From the NCBI GenBank assembly GCA_024235715.1, contig JACKLW010000006.1:186001-250000 (forward strand): a stretch of 64,000 nt of DNA. Reading direction: 5' to 3'. Below, piece after piece: positions 47,824 to 61,722 of the stretch. The position numbers were made by a program, and so were the translations under genes. This stretch comes from Accumulibacter sp. GTDB lineage: Bacteria > Pseudomonadota > Gammaproteobacteria > Burkholderiales > Rhodocyclaceae. The notes below the pieces were generated by a model, which saw only the letters and a list, made by a program, of their open reading frames with translations, was not told the DNA's origin and made no database searches. The first letter of the stretch is position 1, and the number at the start of each line of letters is the position of its first letter.

Positions 47824-48741
47824 CTATCTGGCGTACTTCTGGATGGTCGAGCGGATTTCCTCGATGGCGAGTTCGATCTCTTCCTCGGTGAGTTCGGTCT
47901 TCTGGCGCGGGTTGCGCCCGAATTCGTCCAGTCGGGTAGTGACCGTGTCGCGAGGCATTGACTTGGTCGTCACCAGGCTGCTGCCGGTGCTGTCGTCGAC
48001 GTAGGTGTCCTGCCAGCGTACGGCGATCATCGACAGGTTGTCGGCATGCGGGCCGCCGCGATCCTCTGCCTGGTCAAGCAACACGGGCACGGTGCGCATC
48101 AGGTTGCCGGTCTTCAGGGCGGTCGCCAGCATGTCGCCCGGCAATTCGCTCCAGGCGCCGTCGGTACACAGCAGCAGCACGTCTTCGGCGTCGAGAGTCG
48201 TCTTGCGCGAGAACTCGATTTCCGGGGTTTGCTGGCCGCCAAGGCAGCCGTAGATCTTGTTGCGGTCGGGGTGAGTGCTGGCCTCGTCTACGCTGATCAC
48301 CCCCTGTTCGAGCAGGAGCCGGACGCGTGAGTGGTCCTTCGTTTGCGCGAGGACCCTTCCCTTGCGCAGCAGGTACAGCCGCGAATCACCCGAGTGTGCC
48401 CAGTAGGCAACGTTGTTCTGAACGATGCAGGCGACGCAGGTGGTGCGTGGCGAGTCCTGAAGATCGTGCTTGCCGGCAAAGTCGAGAATTGCGCGGTGTG
48501 CATTGAGCATACCGGTCTGCAGGAACAGGAAAGGGTCCCGAATCGTGGTCTTGACGAGGCGCTGAAACGCCTCGGTCAGCGTCTGCACGGCAATTTGGGC
48601 GGCGACTTCGCCGTAGTAGTGCCCCCCCATGCCGTCGGCGACGACCATCAGCAGGCTGTCGCGCGAATAGCAGTGCGCCAGCCTGTCTTCGTTATTGGCC
48701 CGCTTGCCGGTGCGGCTTTCCTGGTAGATGGTGAATTTCAT
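47824..48741 (-). CDS. PP2C-type serine/threonine phosphatase
   Basis: This 305-residue metal-dependent phosphatase shows the conserved acidic residues in [18 protein letters not shown] (36-45), [22 protein letters not shown] and [13 protein letters not shown]-terminal extension of about 60 residues, rich in Thr/Arg and then Glu ([18 protein letters not shown]), has no family match. ATG 48741 overlaps the kinase stop by four bases, so kinase and phosphatase are coupled and probably act on the same targets. Confidence 0.93.
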
Positions 48742-49706
48742 GGGTTTATGGATTTCTTGAGTTTGCCGACCACCTGGTCGAGCCAGGTTTCCTTCGGCAG
48801 CGGCGACGGGGCAATGACCGCTTCGGTAAGCGCCTTCTGCAGGGCAAAGACGCTCTGCGGCCGGTAGCGGTGGTTGAGGCACAGGCACCAATCGATGGTC
48901 TCGAGCAACTGGTCCGAGTACTGGCCTTCCCAGCGCACCATCGCCGGTACCAGGCGGTCCTTTTCGAGGCGGCTGTCGGCGGCTTGCGGCGTGCTTCCGG
49001 AGATGCACGCATACATTGATGCGCCGACGCTGTAGATGTCGCTCCACGGGCCGAGCAGTTCGCGCTGGTGGTAATGCTCCGGCGAGGCGAAGCCCGGCGT
49101 GTACATCGGTTTGAGCATCGGTGTGTCGCAAGCAAGCGTCTGACGGGCCGCGCCAAAATCGATCAGCACCGGCACATGGTTGTTGCGCATGTAGATGTTC
49201 GATGGCTTGAGGTCGAGATGGAGCAAGCGGTGCGAGTGTACCTCGCGCAGGCCATTGAGCATCTTGGTGAAGACGTTGCGGATGAAGTTTTCGGTGACCC
49301 CGGCCCTGTTCTTCTGGATCAGTTCCTGCAGCGTGCGCCCATGCTCGTATTCCATGACCATATACACCGTGTCGTTGGCACGAAAGAAGTTCAGCACGCG
49401 AATCACGTTCGGATGAGAAAGGCCGGCGAGTGACCGGCCTTCTTCGAAGAAACACTTCATCCCATAGCGAAAAGCCGGCAGATGATCCTCGGCAATGACT
49501 GGCGCCGTCCTTCCTTCGCCCCGCAAGGCCAGCGTGTTCGGCAGATATTCCTTGATGGCGACGCGGTTGCCCTGGCTGTCGGTGGCGACATAGACAATCG
49601 AAAACCCACCCAGTGAGAGCTGTCGCTCGATGCAGTACTCGTCGAGTTGGAACGTGGCAGGAAGGGGGTGGTTCGCTTGTTGCACCATCGGTGTCAAAGC
49701 TATCAT
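48738..49706 (-). CDS. Hanks-type serine/threonine protein kinase
   Basis: This soluble protein of about 322 residues is essentially one kinase domain with no membrane segment or sensor domain. The glycine loop is LSLGGFSIVY and the ATP lysine is K52 (AIKEYLP). The catalytic loop is HLDLKPSN (163-170, HLD instead of HRD) and the metal motif is DFGAA (183-187). SPEHYH and SDIYSVGASMY follow. The HLD change keeps the catalytic Asp, so activity is expected. Starts at ATG 49706 and 49688 are both possible. It is divergent from yicC with an 84-base spacer holding both promoters. Confidence 0.92.
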   Translation of the reverse strand: MIALTPMVQQANHPLPATFQLDEYCIERQLSLGGFSIVYVATDSQGNRVAIKEYLPNTLALRGEGRTAPVIAEDHLPAFRYGMKCFFEEGRSLAGLSHPNVIRVLNFFRANDTVYMVMEYEHGRTLQELIQKNRAGVTENFIRNVFTKMLNGLREVHSHRLLHLDLKPSNIYMRNNHVPVLIDFGAARQTLACDTPMLKPMYTPGFASPEHYHQRELLGPWSDIYSVGASMYACISGSTPQAADSRLEKDRLVPAMVRWEGQYSDQLLETIDWCLCLNHRYRPQSVFALQKALTEAVIAPSPLPKETWLDQVVGKLKKSINP

Positions 49707-56451: not shown

Positions 56452-56593
56452 GTTCGCCACAGCCAGCACAGGAGAGCGCAAGTGAAGGATTGTCGACGTC
56501 ATCAGTGGCCAGGCATGCCGCCCGGCGCGGCAAGGCGCCTGCTTCGCCCGCCGCGATCACTGCATGCTGCCGCCGGAAAAGCGGGAGGTTGCG

Positions 56594-57439
56594 ATGCTGG
56601 TTGATACCCACTGCCACCTTGCTGCCGCCGAGTTCGCCGGTGATCGTGACGCAGTGGCGGCGGCGGCGCACGCTGCCGGTGTGTCGACAATCGTTGTGCC
56701 GGCGGTCGATGTCGCCAGCTTCGCCGAGGTGCGCGCCTGCTGCGCGTGCTACCCGGGCTGTGCGCCTGCGTATGGAATTCATCCGCTGTACGTCCGGAAT
56801 GCCAGGTCTGCGGATCTGGCGGCCTTGAAGGAATGGCTGCTGCGGCCTTTGCCCGGCTCGCCGCAGCCGGTTGCCGTGGGTGAGATTGGCCTTGATCTGT
56901 TTGTCACCGATTCCGCGTTCGACAGGCAGGAGCAGTTCTTCATTGAGCAGCTCAAGATCGCCCGCGAGATCGACCTTCCCGTGCTCCTGCACGTTCGCCG
57001 GGCGATCGATCCGGTACTCAAGCATCTGCGCCGGATCAGGGTCAGGGGGGGCATCGCGCATGCCTTCAACGGCAGTCGCCAGCAGGCGGACGAGTTCATC
57101 AAGCTGGGCTTCAAGCTCGGTTTCGGTGGCGCCATGACCCATGCCGGCTCGACGCGCATCCGCCGTCTGGCGGCTTCCTTGCCGCTCGCCTCGATCGTGC
57201 TCGAGACCGACGCTCCGGACATGCCTCCGGCGTGGCTGGCGGGCGGCCGCAACACGCCTCTGGCGCTGCCGAGGATCAATGAACTGCTGGCCGGCCTGCG
57301 TGCCATCGACGCCGCTGAGCTGGCTCGCGCGACGACTTCCAACGCGCATGCCGCGCTGCCTCGGTTGCGTTTGCAAGAGCGATCGGGTACGTTACCGCCT
57401 GACGACGGCTTCGGGCTTCCGATTTTTCATAAAGAGTGA
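56594..57439 (+). CDS. TatD family metal-dependent hydrolase
   Basis: This 281-residue TIM-barrel hydrolase of the TatD DNase family has the metal ligands DTHCHL, GEIGLDLF, LLHVRRA and AHAFNGS. ETDAPDMPP carries the final aspartate. Family members act as 3'-5' exonucleases in DNA repair or RNA decay. The start is ATG 56594, where the motif begins and GGGAGG lies upstream. The frame extends to 56564 without homology. It is close to YjjV-type members. Confidence 0.92.
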   Translation: MLVDTHCHLAAAEFAGDRDAVAAAAHAAGVSTIVVPAVDVASFAEVRACCACYPGCAPAYGIHPLYVRNARSADLAALKEWLLRPLPGSPQPVAVGEIGLDLFVTDSAFDRQEQFFIEQLKIAREIDLPVLLHVRRAIDPVLKHLRRIRVRGGIAHAFNGSRQQADEFIKLGFKLGFGGAMTHAGSTRIRRLAASLPLASIVLETDAPDMPPAWLAGGRNTPLALPRINELLAGLRAIDAAELARATTSNAHAALPRLRLQERSGTLPPDDGFGLPIFHKE

Positions 57440-57572: not shown

Positions 57573-58340
57573 ATGAAAACTCACCTGGATCGACCGGCGG
57601 CTACCTGCGTGGCTGTCAAGGAAAGCCTCCCTGATGTACCTCACTACCTGCAGGCGCACTACTGGTGGGCTTATGTTCACCCGCGCGCGGTGCATGTTTT
57701 TGAGAGGCAGTGGCTGGTAAATCTGATTCTCTGGGGCAACTACAAGCGCTTGTGCAATGCGGTACTGCATGACTACGGTCACGACCTGCGTGGCCGTACG
57801 CTGCAGGTCGCCTGTGCCTATGGCGACCTGACACCAAGACTGGTTGATTGCGTGGCGCCCGGCGGTACGCTGGAGGTGGTCGATATCCTGCCGATCCAGC
57901 TCGAAAATCTGGCCAAGAAGTTGCCGAAGGATGCGCCGATCCAGCTGCACTGCATGGACTCTGCGGCGCTTGGCTTTGCCGACGCCAGTTTCGACCGTGC
58001 ATTGCTGTTTTTCCTGTTGCATGAGCAGCCACAAGCCGTGCGCGAAAAGACGCTGGCCGAGGCGCTGCGCGTGCTCCGTCCGGGCGGGACGCTGACCATC
58101 GTCGACTATGCGCCGCTGAGCAAGTTGAACCCCTTGCGCTATTTCTGGAAACCGGTTCTGGACCGGCTGGAGCCGTTTGCACGCGACCTCTTCAGTGAGG
58201 AGGTCGCGGCCTGGCTGCCGACAGACGGTCGCTTCTGCACGGTCAGCAATCAGCGCTTCTTCGGTGGTATGTATCAAATGTTGACCCTCGAGATCGTCGA
58301 ATCCGGAGAGCGATTGGCAGACTCACGAGTGGATGATTAG
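57573..58340 (+). CDS. rquA: Rhodoquinone biosynthesis methyltransferase-like protein RquA
   Basis: RquA replaces a methoxy group of ubiquinone by an amino group, giving rhodoquinone. The 255 residues carry the family's distinctive segments: HYWWAYVHPRAVHVFERQWL (30-49), NLILWGNYKRL, and TLQVACAYGDLTPRLVDCVA (77-96). VVDILPIQLENLAKKL, FDRALLFFLLHEQPQAVREK and VLRPGGTLTIVDY follow. VACAYGD replaces the usual SAM motif I of UbiE-like enzymes, a known RquA trait. The gene directly precedes frdABCD in the same direction (86-base gap). No clear ribosome site precedes ATG 57573. Confidence 0.9.
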   Translation: MKTHLDRPAATCVAVKESLPDVPHYLQAHYWWAYVHPRAVHVFERQWLVNLILWGNYKRLCNAVLHDYGHDLRGRTLQVACAYGDLTPRLVDCVAPGGTLEVVDILPIQLENLAKKLPKDAPIQLHCMDSAALGFADASFDRALLFFLLHEQPQAVREKTLAEALRVLRPGGTLTIVDYAPLSKLNPLRYFWKPVLDRLEPFARDLFSEEVAAWLPTDGRFCTVSNQRFFGGMYQMLTLEIVESGERLADSRVDD

Positions 58341-58426
58341 CCGGCCCTGCGTCAGGAACCGATTCCTGCGGGGCTTCCCTGATGTTGTTCGCTGCCGGCG
58401 ATGCCCGGCGCGAGAAAGGAAGAAGC

Positions 58427-60214
58427 ATGGAGAGTTACAAGGCAGATGTGGTGATTGTGGGCGGCGGCGGAGCGGGCCTCAGGGCAGCCATCGCCGTGGC
58501 GGAGTCCGATCCGGCCCTCAGGATCGCACTGGTTTCCAAGGTCTATCCGATGCGCAGCCATACCGTCGCCGCCGAAGGCGGATCGGCGGGGGTGAAGCTG
58601 CCGACCGATAGTCTCGAGTACCATTTCAACGACACCGTCGGTGGTGGCGACTGGTTGTGCGAGCAGGATGTGGTCGAGTACTTCGTCGCCCATTGCAACG
58701 AAGAACTGACCCAGCTCGAGCACTGGGGATGCCCCTGGAGTCGTACCCCCGATGGGCATGTCAACGTCCGCGCTTTTGGCGGTATGAAGATCGAACGCAC
58801 CTGGTTCGCCGCGGACAAGACCGGTTTTCACATGCTGCACACGCTTTTCCAGACGTCGATCAAGTATCCGTCGATCAAGCGCTTCGACGAGCATTTCTGC
58901 GTCGACCTTGTCGTCGAGCATGGCCGCGTTCAGGGCGTCGTCGCCATCGAGATCGGTTCCGGAGAGTTCACGCTGGTCGAGGGCAGGTCGGTGGTCATCG
59001 CTACCGGTGGCGCTGGCCGCGTTTTTCGCGAGAACACCAATGGTGGCGTGGTCACCGGCGACGGCATGGCGGTGGCGTACCGGCACGGTGTGCCCCTGCG
59101 GGACATGGAGTTCGTCCAGTACCACCCGACCTGCATGCCTGGTACCGGGCTGCTATTCACCGAAGCATGTCGCGGCGAAGGCGGTTTCCTGGTGAACAAG
59201 GACGGCTATCGCTACCTGCAGGATTACGGTCTCGGCCCGGCCGAGCCGTCGCCACGCAACAAGGCGATGGAACTCGGGCCGCGTGACCGCCTCAGCCAGG
59301 CGTTCTGGTACGAGCAGCAGAAGGGTCGTACCATCGAAGGCCAGCATGGTTCGGTCGTGCATCTCGACCTGCGCCATCTCGGCGAGGCCAAGCTGCGCGA
59401 GCGTCTGCCGCAGATCTACGAGCTGGCCGAGCAGTTCCTCGGTGTCGACCCGGCGCGTGCACCGATCCCGGTCCGACCAGCGGTCCACTACACCATGGGC
59501 GGCATTCTGGTTGACGGTCGCTGTGCCTCGCCGCTGCCCGGTCTCTACGCCGCCGGGGAATGTTCCAGCGTCGGCATCCATGGTGCCAATCGCCTGGGCT
59601 CGAACTCCCTGTCGGAGCTGTGCGTCTTTGGCAAGGTGGCCGGCGAAGAAGCCGCCCGTTTTGCCAAGGCGTCCGCGCCGGGAAATTCGGCCAGTCTGCT
59701 CAAGCAGGCGCAGGCGGTCGAACAGCGGGTCAGCGGGCTGAAAACGAAAACCGGCGGCAACGAGCGCATTGCTACGTTGCGCAAGGAAATGGCGCAGACC
59801 ATGGAGGATGGCTGCGGTATCTATCGCCTGGCCGATACCATGCAAAAGACATGCGACAAGCTCGATGAACTCAAGGAGCGCTTCAAGAACGTCAACGTCG
59901 AGGACAAGTCGAGTGTCTGGAATACCGAGTGGCTGCTGGCCATCGAACTCGAGTATCAGCTCGACGTCGCCCAGAGCATGGCCTATTCGGCGTTGAATCG
60001 CCGTGAGTCGCGTGGTGCTCACCAGCGCCTCGACGGCTTCGAGAAGCGTGACGATGAAAACTTCCTGAAGCACTCGCAGGCGCACTATGTTGCTGGCGGT
60101 GCGCCGCGCATCGACTACGGCGACGTGAAGATCACCAAGTCGCAGCCGGGAACGCGCGCCTACGGTGCGGCGGGTGAAAAGGCAGAGCAGGAAAGGAAGG
60201 CAGCCAATGTCTGA
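58427..60214 (+). CDS. frdA: Fumarate reductase flavoprotein subunit
   Basis: This 595-residue catalytic subunit has covalent FAD. It matches E. coli FrdA closely: [26 protein letters not shown] with the flavin-linked H45, and FHDTV-like [75 protein letters not shown], the active-site VHYTMGGI and [11 protein letters not shown] also match. The resemblance is to the menaquinol-type Frd clade rather than aerobic SdhA. AAGGAAG lies before ATG 58427. It overlaps frdB by eight bases. Confidence 0.95.
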
Positions 60215-60962
60215 GAATCAGAGAATCATTGAAATCGAGGTGTTGCGCTATCACCCGGAAAAGGATAAGGCGCCGTACCAGCAGGTTTTCCAGGTGCCCT
60301 TTACCGACGACATGTCGGTATTGCAGGGCGTGCAATACATCAAGGACTATCTCGACGGCTCGCTGAGCTTTCGCTGGTCCTGCCGGATGGCCATCTGCGG
60401 CAGCTGCGGGATGATGATCAACGGCGAACCCAGCCTGTCCTGCGAGACCTTCCTGCGCGACTATTACCCGGCGCGGGTACGCGTCGAGGCACTGGCGCAT
60501 TTTCCGATCGAGCGCGACCTGGTGATCAACATGGAAGGCTTCATCGAGAAACTCGAAAGCATCCAGCCGTACATCATCCCCAAGGAGCCGCGTACGCTGG
60601 CGCAGGGCGAGTACCTGCAGACGCCCGCACAACTGGGTGCCTACGAGCAGTTCAGTTCGTGCATCAACTGCATGTTGTGCTATGCCGCGTGTCCGCAGTT
60701 CGGGCTCAACTCGGAGTTCGTCGGTCCGGCAGCGATGGCGCTGCTGCACCGCTACAATGTCGATTCGCGCGATGGCGGCAAGGCCGAGCGAATGGAATTG
60801 GTCAATTCCGAAGAGGGGGTGTTCAACTGCACCGCCGTCGGCTATTGCTCCGAGGTCTGTCCGAAGCACGTCGACCCGGCCAACGCCGTCAACCAGAACA
60901 AGACCAATAGCGCGGCCGACTATTTCATGCGTTTCCTTACTCCGAAGGGAGGTGCCAAGTGA
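60207..60962 (+). CDS. frdB: Fumarate reductase iron-sulfur subunit
   Basis: This 251-residue subunit carries electrons from quinol to FAD. The 2Fe-2S ligands are C59, C64, C67 and C79 ([11 protein letters not shown]). The 4Fe-4S ligands are C152, C155, C158 (CINCMLC), with C218 in VCPK. The 3Fe-4S ligands include C162, C208 and C214. All clusters look complete. The start ATG 60207 lies inside the frdA end, with AAGGAAGG just before it. Its stop overlaps the frdC start. Confidence 0.95.
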
Positions 60963-61357
60963 GCAAGCGTCGTCCCTATGTTCGTCCGATGGCGGGTTGG
61001 TGGCGCAAGAACCCGTTTTTCGTCGAGTACATGATCCACGAGGGCACCGCCCTCTTCGTTGCCGCCTATGCGCTGATCCTGCTGACCGGACTGGTTTACC
61101 TGGCGCACGGCGAGGCGGCCTGGAACGTCTGGCTCGAAGGGCTCAAGAACCCGTGGTATATCGCTTTCCACTGGCTGGCCCTGGCGGCGATGTGCTACCA
61201 CACCTACACCTGGTTCAAGATCATGCCGCGGACCATGCCGCCGGTAATCGTCGGTGGCAAGCGCCTGCCGGACTTCGCAATCACCGGTAGCGGTCTGGCC
61301 GTCGCCGTGACGGCCAGTCTTGCCATGTTTGGTCTGGTATGGGGGATGGCACGATGA
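60959..61357 (+). CDS. frdC: Fumarate reductase membrane anchor subunit C
   Basis: This 132-residue protein has three transmembrane helices, E. coli FrdC type: [63 protein letters not shown]. With FrdD it forms the quinol site and anchors FrdAB. No heme-ligand pattern like that of cytochrome b anchors is apparent. GTG 60959 overlaps the frdB stop (GTGA), and its stop overlaps frdD. Confidence 0.94.
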
Positions 61358-61722
61358 AACGGCCGCTGAAACGTTCCAACGCACCTATCTTCTGGGCACT
61401 GTTCGGTGCCGGCGGCATGCTGTCGGCGCTGCTCGGCCCGATCCTGGTGTTCATCACCGGCCTGGCCGTTCCGCTCGGGATGTTGCTGCCGGCCGACACC
61501 ATGAGCTACGCGAACATGCAGGCCTTTGCCCAGAACATCATCGGCAAGGGCTTCATCTTCGCAATAATCGCGCTGTTCCTCTGGCATGCCGCGCATCGCA
61601 TCTTCCACAGTCTGCACGACATCGGTATTCACGCCGGTATCGTGGCCAAGCTGATCTGCTACGGCGGTGCGATGGTCGCGACGCTGATTACCGCCTACGA
61701 GCTGCTGGCGATCGGCTTCTAG
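61354..61722 (+). CDS. frdD: Fumarate reductase membrane anchor subunit D
   Basis: This 122-residue protein has three helices: NAPIFWALFGAGGMLSALLGPILVFITGL, GFIFAIIALFLWHAAHRIFHSLHDIGI, and KLICYGGAMVATLITAYELLAIGF. The motif AAHRIFHSLHDIG is that of FrdD. Together the four subunits form a heme-free type D quinol:fumarate reductase. ATG 61354 overlaps the frdC stop (ATGA). A strong hairpin follows the stop. Confidence 0.94.
   Translation: MKRPLKRSNAPIFWALFGAGGMLSALLGPILVFITGLAVPLGMLLPADTMSYANMQAFAQNIIGKGFIFAIIALFLWHAAHRIFHSLHDIGIHAGIVAKLICYGGAMVATLITAYELLAIGF

Follow-up and report, generated by a model that had tools for sequence, protein, structure and literature searches.

We analysed a stretch of 64,000 nucleotides from Accumulibacter sp. 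(GenBank assembly GCA_024235715.1, contig JACKLW010000006.1, positions 186,001 to 250,000; hereafter the window), in which rquA, a gene for rhodoquinone synthesis, directly precedes the fumarate reductase operon frdABCD. The locus probably encodes a rhodoquinone maker together with its likely main user, with rhodoquinone having replaced, in this strain, the menaquinone of relatives. The position of rquA before frd points to a little-noticed route by which Accumulibacter could discard electrons without oxygen. Rhodoquinone-linked fumarate reduction is established, and rquA near complex II was already known in 2018 (PMC5953543; sources cited by such numbers are quoted for the portions of their text available to us). 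For rquA of Accumulibacter itself, we found no description in the open-licence literature searched, where the one paper containing both "Accumulibacter" and "rquA" has the second word in its reference list alone. The anaerobic electron balance of Accumulibacter in biological phosphorus removal is still debated, and if rhodoquinol is the donor, this question becomes directly measurable.

The rquA gene (57573..58340, forward strand) encodes a protein of 255 aa that scores 278.7 bits with the RquA model NF038261 (cut-off 175), against 37.7 bits with the best UbiE-type model. None of 14 control genomes passed the RquA cut-off. Motif I of the protein (LQVACAYG) is without the usual glycine pattern, as published for RquA. 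In an alignment of 16 RquA sequences, Asp104 (codon 57882..57884) is invariant and Asp129 (codon 57957..57959) is Asp in 14 rows and Asn in two; from this alignment, which does not contain Rhodospirillum rubrum RquA, we infer that they are the equivalents of the S-adenosylmethionine (SAM)-binding Asp118 and of Asp143 of that enzyme. R. rubrum RquA turns ubiquinone into rhodoquinone using SAM and Mn2+, and its double mutant D118A/D143A produced no RQ8 (PMC9814641). Rhodoquinone production by RquA has been confirmed experimentally in 15 species (PMC11707229). The window gene is under purifying selection, with a ratio of nonsynonymous to synonymous divergence (dN/dS) of 0.08–0.12 against six genus members, for two of which dS is near 1. 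An earlier note on this DNA, made from its letters alone, had named the gene rquA; the family score and the retention of both key Asp residues uphold that identification, and the protein is predicted to be active as a rhodoquinone synthase. A probable difference from R. rubrum RquA is the position of its gene directly before frdABCD.

The rquA stop is separated from the ATG of frdA by 86 nt (58341..58426). The four frd genes follow on the forward strand, all intact and overlapping by 8 nt (A/B), 4 nt (B/C) and 4 nt (C/D), which agrees with the layout that the earlier note had described. The flavoprotein gene frdA (58427..60214, 595 aa) reaches 957.3 bits with TIGR01176 (cut-off 932.7) and frdB, for the iron-sulfur subunit (60207..60962, 251 aa), 424.9 bits with PRK12385 (cut-off 333). 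The membrane anchors are encoded by frdC (60959..61357, 132 aa, GTG start; 146.6 bits with Fumarate_red_C, PF02300, cut-off 24.2) and frdD (61354..61722, 122 aa; 148.4 bits with PRK05470, cut-off 60). Thus, FrdA, FrdB and FrdD pass curated cut-offs and FrdC passes that of Pfam. The E. coli FrdABCD structure 1kf6 is the top solved match for each subunit (E values of 1.8e-257, 1.5e-99, 2.5e-21 and 4.9e-29 for chains A to D). The operon therefore is of the E. coli type, as had been claimed, with the same gene order A-B-C-D and with FrdC Glu29 retained; it differs from that of E. coli in having His in place of FrdC Arg28, in the adjoining rquA and in its genomic setting, in which our search turned up no intact menaquinone pathway. 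Membership of FrdC and FrdD in the Fumarate_red_C/D families suggests that the enzyme is heme-free. The frd genes have dN/dS values of 0.03–0.24 against the same six genus members, and transcription of Accumulibacter frd genes has been reported (PMC12604563).

The pair is conserved throughout the genus. Among 28 Ca. Accumulibacter genomes, the window's own genome included, RquA passes its cut-off in 26 (all but G004 and G016, the latter 72% complete) with 78–88% identity to the window protein, and FrdC is present in 26 (all but G003 and G016). In all 24 genomes that carry rquA and frd on one contig, the two are adjacent, and FrdC begins 2.65–2.70 kb after the RquA match. The gap between rquA and frdA is 82–151 nt across the window and 23 genus loci, a range that excludes the unclear G026 and also G008 with its split rquA. 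The contig of G018 ends just after frdA and that of G003 inside frdA, and rquA sits before frdA in both; rquA of G004 is undecided because its contig ends inside frdA. The near-constant spacing in 24/24 genomes, together with the low dN/dS of rquA, indicates a pairing beyond chance. In G008 (L201 / L132), rquA is split across two frames and the start of frdA is without a match in one frame, reflecting either sequencing error or decay.

E. coli-type, menaquinol-driven fumarate reduction needs menaquinone synthesis by the host, and no intact pathway for it was found in the window's own genome (G000; 4.14 Mb in 25 contigs). We found no MenD there (E up to 1e-30), no MqnC (E up to 1e-50) and no MenB over its cut-off. 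In G014, menB and menC are intact and adjoin a histidine kinase gene; no other men genes were found among the open reading frames (ORFs) scanned at the menB locus. At the syntenic place in the window's genome (contig C10; L029 9116-9837) lies a menB remnant, of which about 148 residues can be read in one frame at 72% identity and an upstream part, weakly, in another frame; neither the C-terminal part of menB nor a menC match was found in the 19 kb fetched. In G026 (L016 9052-10337), menB is broken across frames and a 47-residue tail of menC is left. Among the genomes without MenB, relics were looked for in these two, and at least two lineages of the genus have most likely given up menaquinone synthesis while keeping rquA-frd. 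Because the menaquinone genes are eroded, rhodoquinone would stand in menaquinone's place in this strain, and with MenD and MqnC not found and menB only a remnant, this frd most likely takes rhodoquinol. The pairing of an E. coli-type reductase with rhodoquinol that the earlier note had highlighted thereby becomes the most likely assignment of the donor. Among 68 genomes, including the 28 of the genus, not one had MqnC over its cut-off.

The alternative is that FrdABCD reduces fumarate with menaquinol, like the E. coli enzyme, that RquA serves other enzymes and that their adjacency is incidental. In its favour, MenB passes its cut-off in 14/28 genus genomes and MenD in 12/28, and three family genomes on the same Frd branch (G085, G134 and G168) have MenD without RquA. 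We nonetheless consider it unlikely, given the broken menB and the missing MenD and MqnC matches in the window's genome and the recurrence of rquA-frd linkage outside the genus in three arrangements, described below. A. phosphatis has already been listed with a classical menaquinone pathway (PMC3914697). For 84 RquA genomes, just 5 cases of rhodoquinone together with menaquinone have been recorded (PMC11707229).

In the proposed scheme, RquA would replace one methoxy substituent of ubiquinone with an amino group derived from SAM, yielding the low-potential rhodoquinone; this chemistry is that of R. rubrum RquA and is transferred here by family and residues. Oxygen-independent ubiquinone synthesis would furnish the substrate in the absence of oxygen, and the window's genome has UbiU (555.8 bits, cut-off 440) and UbiT (130.5 bits, cut-off 46.9). 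One ORF chosen as a UbiV candidate had no family match, and a second U32 match adjoins UbiU. Without oxygen, an NADH:quinone oxidoreductase would pass electrons from NADH to rhodoquinone, and the E. coli-type FrdABCD encoded next to rquA would oxidise the resulting rhodoquinol and reduce fumarate to succinate. The adjacency of rquA and frd would most likely give joint expression. In this strain, rhodoquinone would in this way do the work that close relatives leave to menaquinone, alone or alongside rhodoquinone. Should FrdABCD lack heme, as its E. coli counterpart does, the last step would be electroneutral and any proton-motive force would stem from the dehydrogenase. This bears on a 2025 transcript study of the genus in which a contribution of fumarate reductase to the proton-motive force is considered (PMC12604563); its main text has no word starting with "quinone". 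The earlier suggestion that a complete reductive succinate branch would matter for propionyl-CoA formation is weakened by the same study, in which Accumulibacter is without some methylmalonyl-CoA genes and type I leans on the ethylmalonyl-CoA pathway (PMC12604563).

We then compared RquA loci outside the genus. The sample comprised the best 80 of at least 548 confirmed RquA relatives, ranked by likeness to the window RquA and therefore non-random, of which 18 are at the Accumulibacter level (RquA 80–93% identical to the window) and 62 are others. Flanks of up to 8 kb, often shorter, were fetched; they reach at least 4 kb on both sides in 35 of the 62 loci, 12 of them linked, and fall short of 4 kb in 22 unlinked ones. 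An E. coli-type frd lies in the fetched flank of 17 of the 62. In these linked loci, rquA stands before frdABCD in eight, including Ramlibacter-titled ones, after it in three and tail-to-tail with it in six; the rquA and frd matches are 9–228 nt apart except in L138 (3.3 kb). All four Frd subunits were matched in 16 of the 17 loci, L180 stopping short of frdD. L176 and L181 are truncated by the end of the locus, and L139 has a partial frdA match that is separated from frdB. Succinate dehydrogenase (SDH) was found near none of the 62 loci within these flanks, where the SdhA query never beat FrdA and matched nothing elsewhere. On the RquA tree, a quick search with weak support and a long-branch warning, the arrangement changes at least 10 times and the linkage 8 times. 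In our view, this repeated linkage of rquA with E. coli-type frd, seen in three arrangements, is the strongest evidence from sequence that the two work together. Beside these loci, a Massilia-titled metagenome-assembled genome (MAG) carries a lone FrdA-like flavoprotein gene (L136 6280-8687, 50% identity) directly before rquA, with no FrdB, FrdC or FrdD match in the flank.

The proximity of rquA to complex II has a precedent in Stairs et al. (2018), who reported rquA no more than 15 genes away from respiratory complexes, complex II among them, and proposed operons; "Accumulibacter" does not occur in the main text of that paper, and section 8 of it does not mention menaquinone erosion beside a conserved rquA-frd pair (PMC5953543). 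For Ca. Thiosymbion oneisti, the same proposal has been made, namely that rhodoquinone could stand in for a missing menaquinone, and its frdA is up without oxygen; an adjacency of rquA and frdABCD is not stated in the available portion of that paper (PMC8269255). Two other Thiosymbion rquA loci (L173 and L188, the latter short) had no complex II gene in the fetched flanks.

The relatives within the family bear on how the pair arose. Of 199 family genomes, six of them from the genus, 61 have RquA over the cut-off, 46 have FrdC (E 1e-8) and 24 have both (Fisher p 5e-4, uncorrected for kinship; the genomes are kin, so that counts are not independent events). No RquA match was found at any of the 40 family frd loci outside the genus, in stretches reaching at most about 5 kb upstream and 2 kb downstream of frdC. 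On the Frd tree, also a quick search, 23 of the 40 fall on the side of the window, comprising 20 A-type loci (FrdA 75–85% identical to the window), G180 and G208 from one genus (70%) and G209 (65%). Of these 23 genomes, 17 have RquA, four have MenD without RquA (the three named above and G209) and two have neither (G061, 82% complete, and G180, 99%), MenD having been searched in family genomes that bear RquA or FrdC. The other 17 loci form a B-type branch, with FrdA 57–60% identical to the window. Overall, RquA or MenD is found in 21/23 window-side genomes, versus 2/17 B-type genomes (RquA in G036, MenD in G126, neither in the other 15). The B-type loci (L054-L057 and L059-L071) thus constitute a second E. 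coli-type frdABCD branch with an unexplained quinone partner; two of its genomes with neither RquA nor MenD, G141 and G181, have MqnC-like matches below the cut-off.

The RquA lineages of the family do not follow those of Frd. Of 20 other family RquA, one each for 20 of the 21 other genera matched, 17 are 30–39% identical to the window protein and three are 49–55% identical; the 17 stand apart on the RquA tree with 100% support in the Shimodaira–Hasegawa-like approximate likelihood ratio test (SH-aLRT), subject to the quick search and long-branch warning already given. FrdC is present in six of these 17 genomes, five A-type and one B-type. On these trees, one reductase lineage pairs with different deep RquA lineages in the family, and the joining of rquA and frd in Accumulibacter looks like a local event common to one Dechloromonas-titled MAG (L130). 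The earlier note had read the linkage as a possible sign of horizontal mobility. Transfer of RquA and FrdABCD as one cassette would account for the order rquA-frdABCD that Accumulibacter has in common with eight other loci, some of them Ramlibacter-titled. This explanation is very unlikely, as the Frd of the genus nests among those of several family genera whose RquA is unlinked and mostly of another deep lineage, the wider loci show three arrangements with at least 10 changes among them, and no mobile gene was found among the 20 window ORFs scanned besides rquA-frdABCD, several of which matched nothing. Since the same Frd lineage occurs with unlinked, mostly deeply different RquA, rquA and frd seem to have been joined instead of travelling as a unit.

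Several observations weigh against assigning rhodoquinol as the donor. RquA, MenB and MenD all pass their cut-offs in 10 of the 28 genus genomes (one being G008 with its split rquA), so frd need not use rhodoquinol there. The genome-wide search for menaquinone genes proposed in the earlier note bears out their erosion in part: MenD and MqnC were not found and menB is a remnant, but a MenA-type prenyltransferase over its cut-off remains (contig C8 279855-280691, L030), as MenA does in five of seven genomes tested, this one included, and the genome is only 90.5% complete, which limits the absences. The MqnC cut-off is strict, being passed by only two of six control genomes that gave a match, and five of the 68 genomes, none of the genus, have MqnC matches of 294–328 bits against a cut-off of 428. 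In the family, 37 of the 61 RquA-bearing genomes gave no match to FrdC (E 1e-8), which means that RquA does not need an E. coli-type Frd. One rquA from outside Pseudomonadota yielded no rhodoquinone in E. coli (PMC13386864). The window FrdC is below the narrow NCBIfam FrdC equivalog cut-off (100.1 against 143), though it passes PF02300. We tried FrdA Glu50, which we took to be a mark of fumarate reductases, as a discriminator and rejected it; the residue is also Glu in the B-type branch and separates nothing. Co-transcription of rquA and frd is tentative across the 86 nt that separate rquA from frdA, and no FNR-like site with 9 or 10 of 10 consensus bases was found in the window. The best FNR-like match upstream of rquA has 7/10 in the window and 8/10 in some genus loci, about 275–316 nt upstream; the 8/10 matches of the genus loci are probably within tatD.

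We also asked whether the quinol site differs on the RquA-paired branch. FrdC His27 (codon 61037..61039) aligns to E. coli FrdC Arg28, next to Glu29, a pair that we take to line the quinol site; structure 4kx6, also matched by the window FrdC, differs at this Glu. Position 27 is His in 22/22 aligned FrdC of the genus, in both genomes of group g12 and in 17 of the 20 A-type genomes outside the genus, and Arg in the remaining three A-type genomes, which bear MenD and are without RquA, and in 18/18 other family FrdC. Exceptions to the match between His27 and RquA are G036, with RquA and Arg, and G180, with His and neither RquA nor MenD. Across the 17 rquA-linked loci of the wider sample, the residue is Arg in 12, Met in three and His in two. 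His27 was accordingly rejected as a strict rhodoquinone signature, the rquA-linked Frd elsewhere having mostly Arg or Met. An independent-pairs test over 77 of 81 rows (two without FrdC, G004 and G061 being left out) gave five pairs, about one of them informative, and the hypothesis that His arose just once was not rejected (43 rows vs 36, approximately unbiased (AU) test p 0.89). Holding the His rows together gives a tree that beats the quick one by 51.5 log units, which shows that the quick tree is rough. FrdC His27 is a testable lead, not a signature. We tentatively raise the possibility that Accumulibacter is midway in swapping menaquinone for rhodoquinone on one fumarate reductase, some species having both and others only men relics, with the quinol site retuned by the change from Arg28 to His in FrdC on the RquA-paired branch. 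The genus, with genes for both quinones in some species and men relics in others, offers a natural example in which one low-potential quinone gives way to another.

The earlier note had also called for a search of the whole genome for a separate SDH. SdhA passes its cut-off in 25 of the 28 genus genomes, the misses being the window's own genome, G016 and G027. In the window's genome, no SdhA over the cut-off was found, nor any SdhC/D except a cross-match of FrdC, which would fit a scheme in which FrdABCD is the sole complex II, acting mostly as succinate dehydrogenase with ubiquinone in air and using rhodoquinone secondarily; a symbiotic Accumulibacter is reported to have lost SDH and to rely on fumarate reductase (PMC13310139). 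However, contig C14 of the window's genome can be aligned with G014 up to a point 961 nt short of the contig end, and sdhA would be expected to start about 1.8 kb beyond that point and so roughly 0.85 kb outside the contig. With SdhA in nearly all of the genus, the absence is probably an assembly edge, and we regard the sole-complex-II scheme as quite unlikely. The search thus returned no SdhA, but from a genome in which the expected place lies past a contig end, and a loss of SDH in the window's genome was not concluded. In G027, contig C106 (L028) loses colinearity with G014 near the expected sdh site and no SdhA passes the cut-off; a real loss of SDH is possible there.

The surroundings of the locus are as follows. 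Upstream of rquA, a gene for a tatD-like hydrolase (56564..57439, forward strand) ends 133 nt before it; its product scores 206.3 bits with PRK11449, below the cut-off of 481, whereas the other upstream genes gmk, spoT and dadA each pass a cut-off. Downstream of frdD lie ycgR-like and flhB-like ORFs, both below their cut-offs. Farther upstream in the window, an ORF on the reverse strand (48738-49706) resembles Ser/Thr protein kinases and matches PASTA-kinase and defence-kinase models at scores far below their cut-offs.

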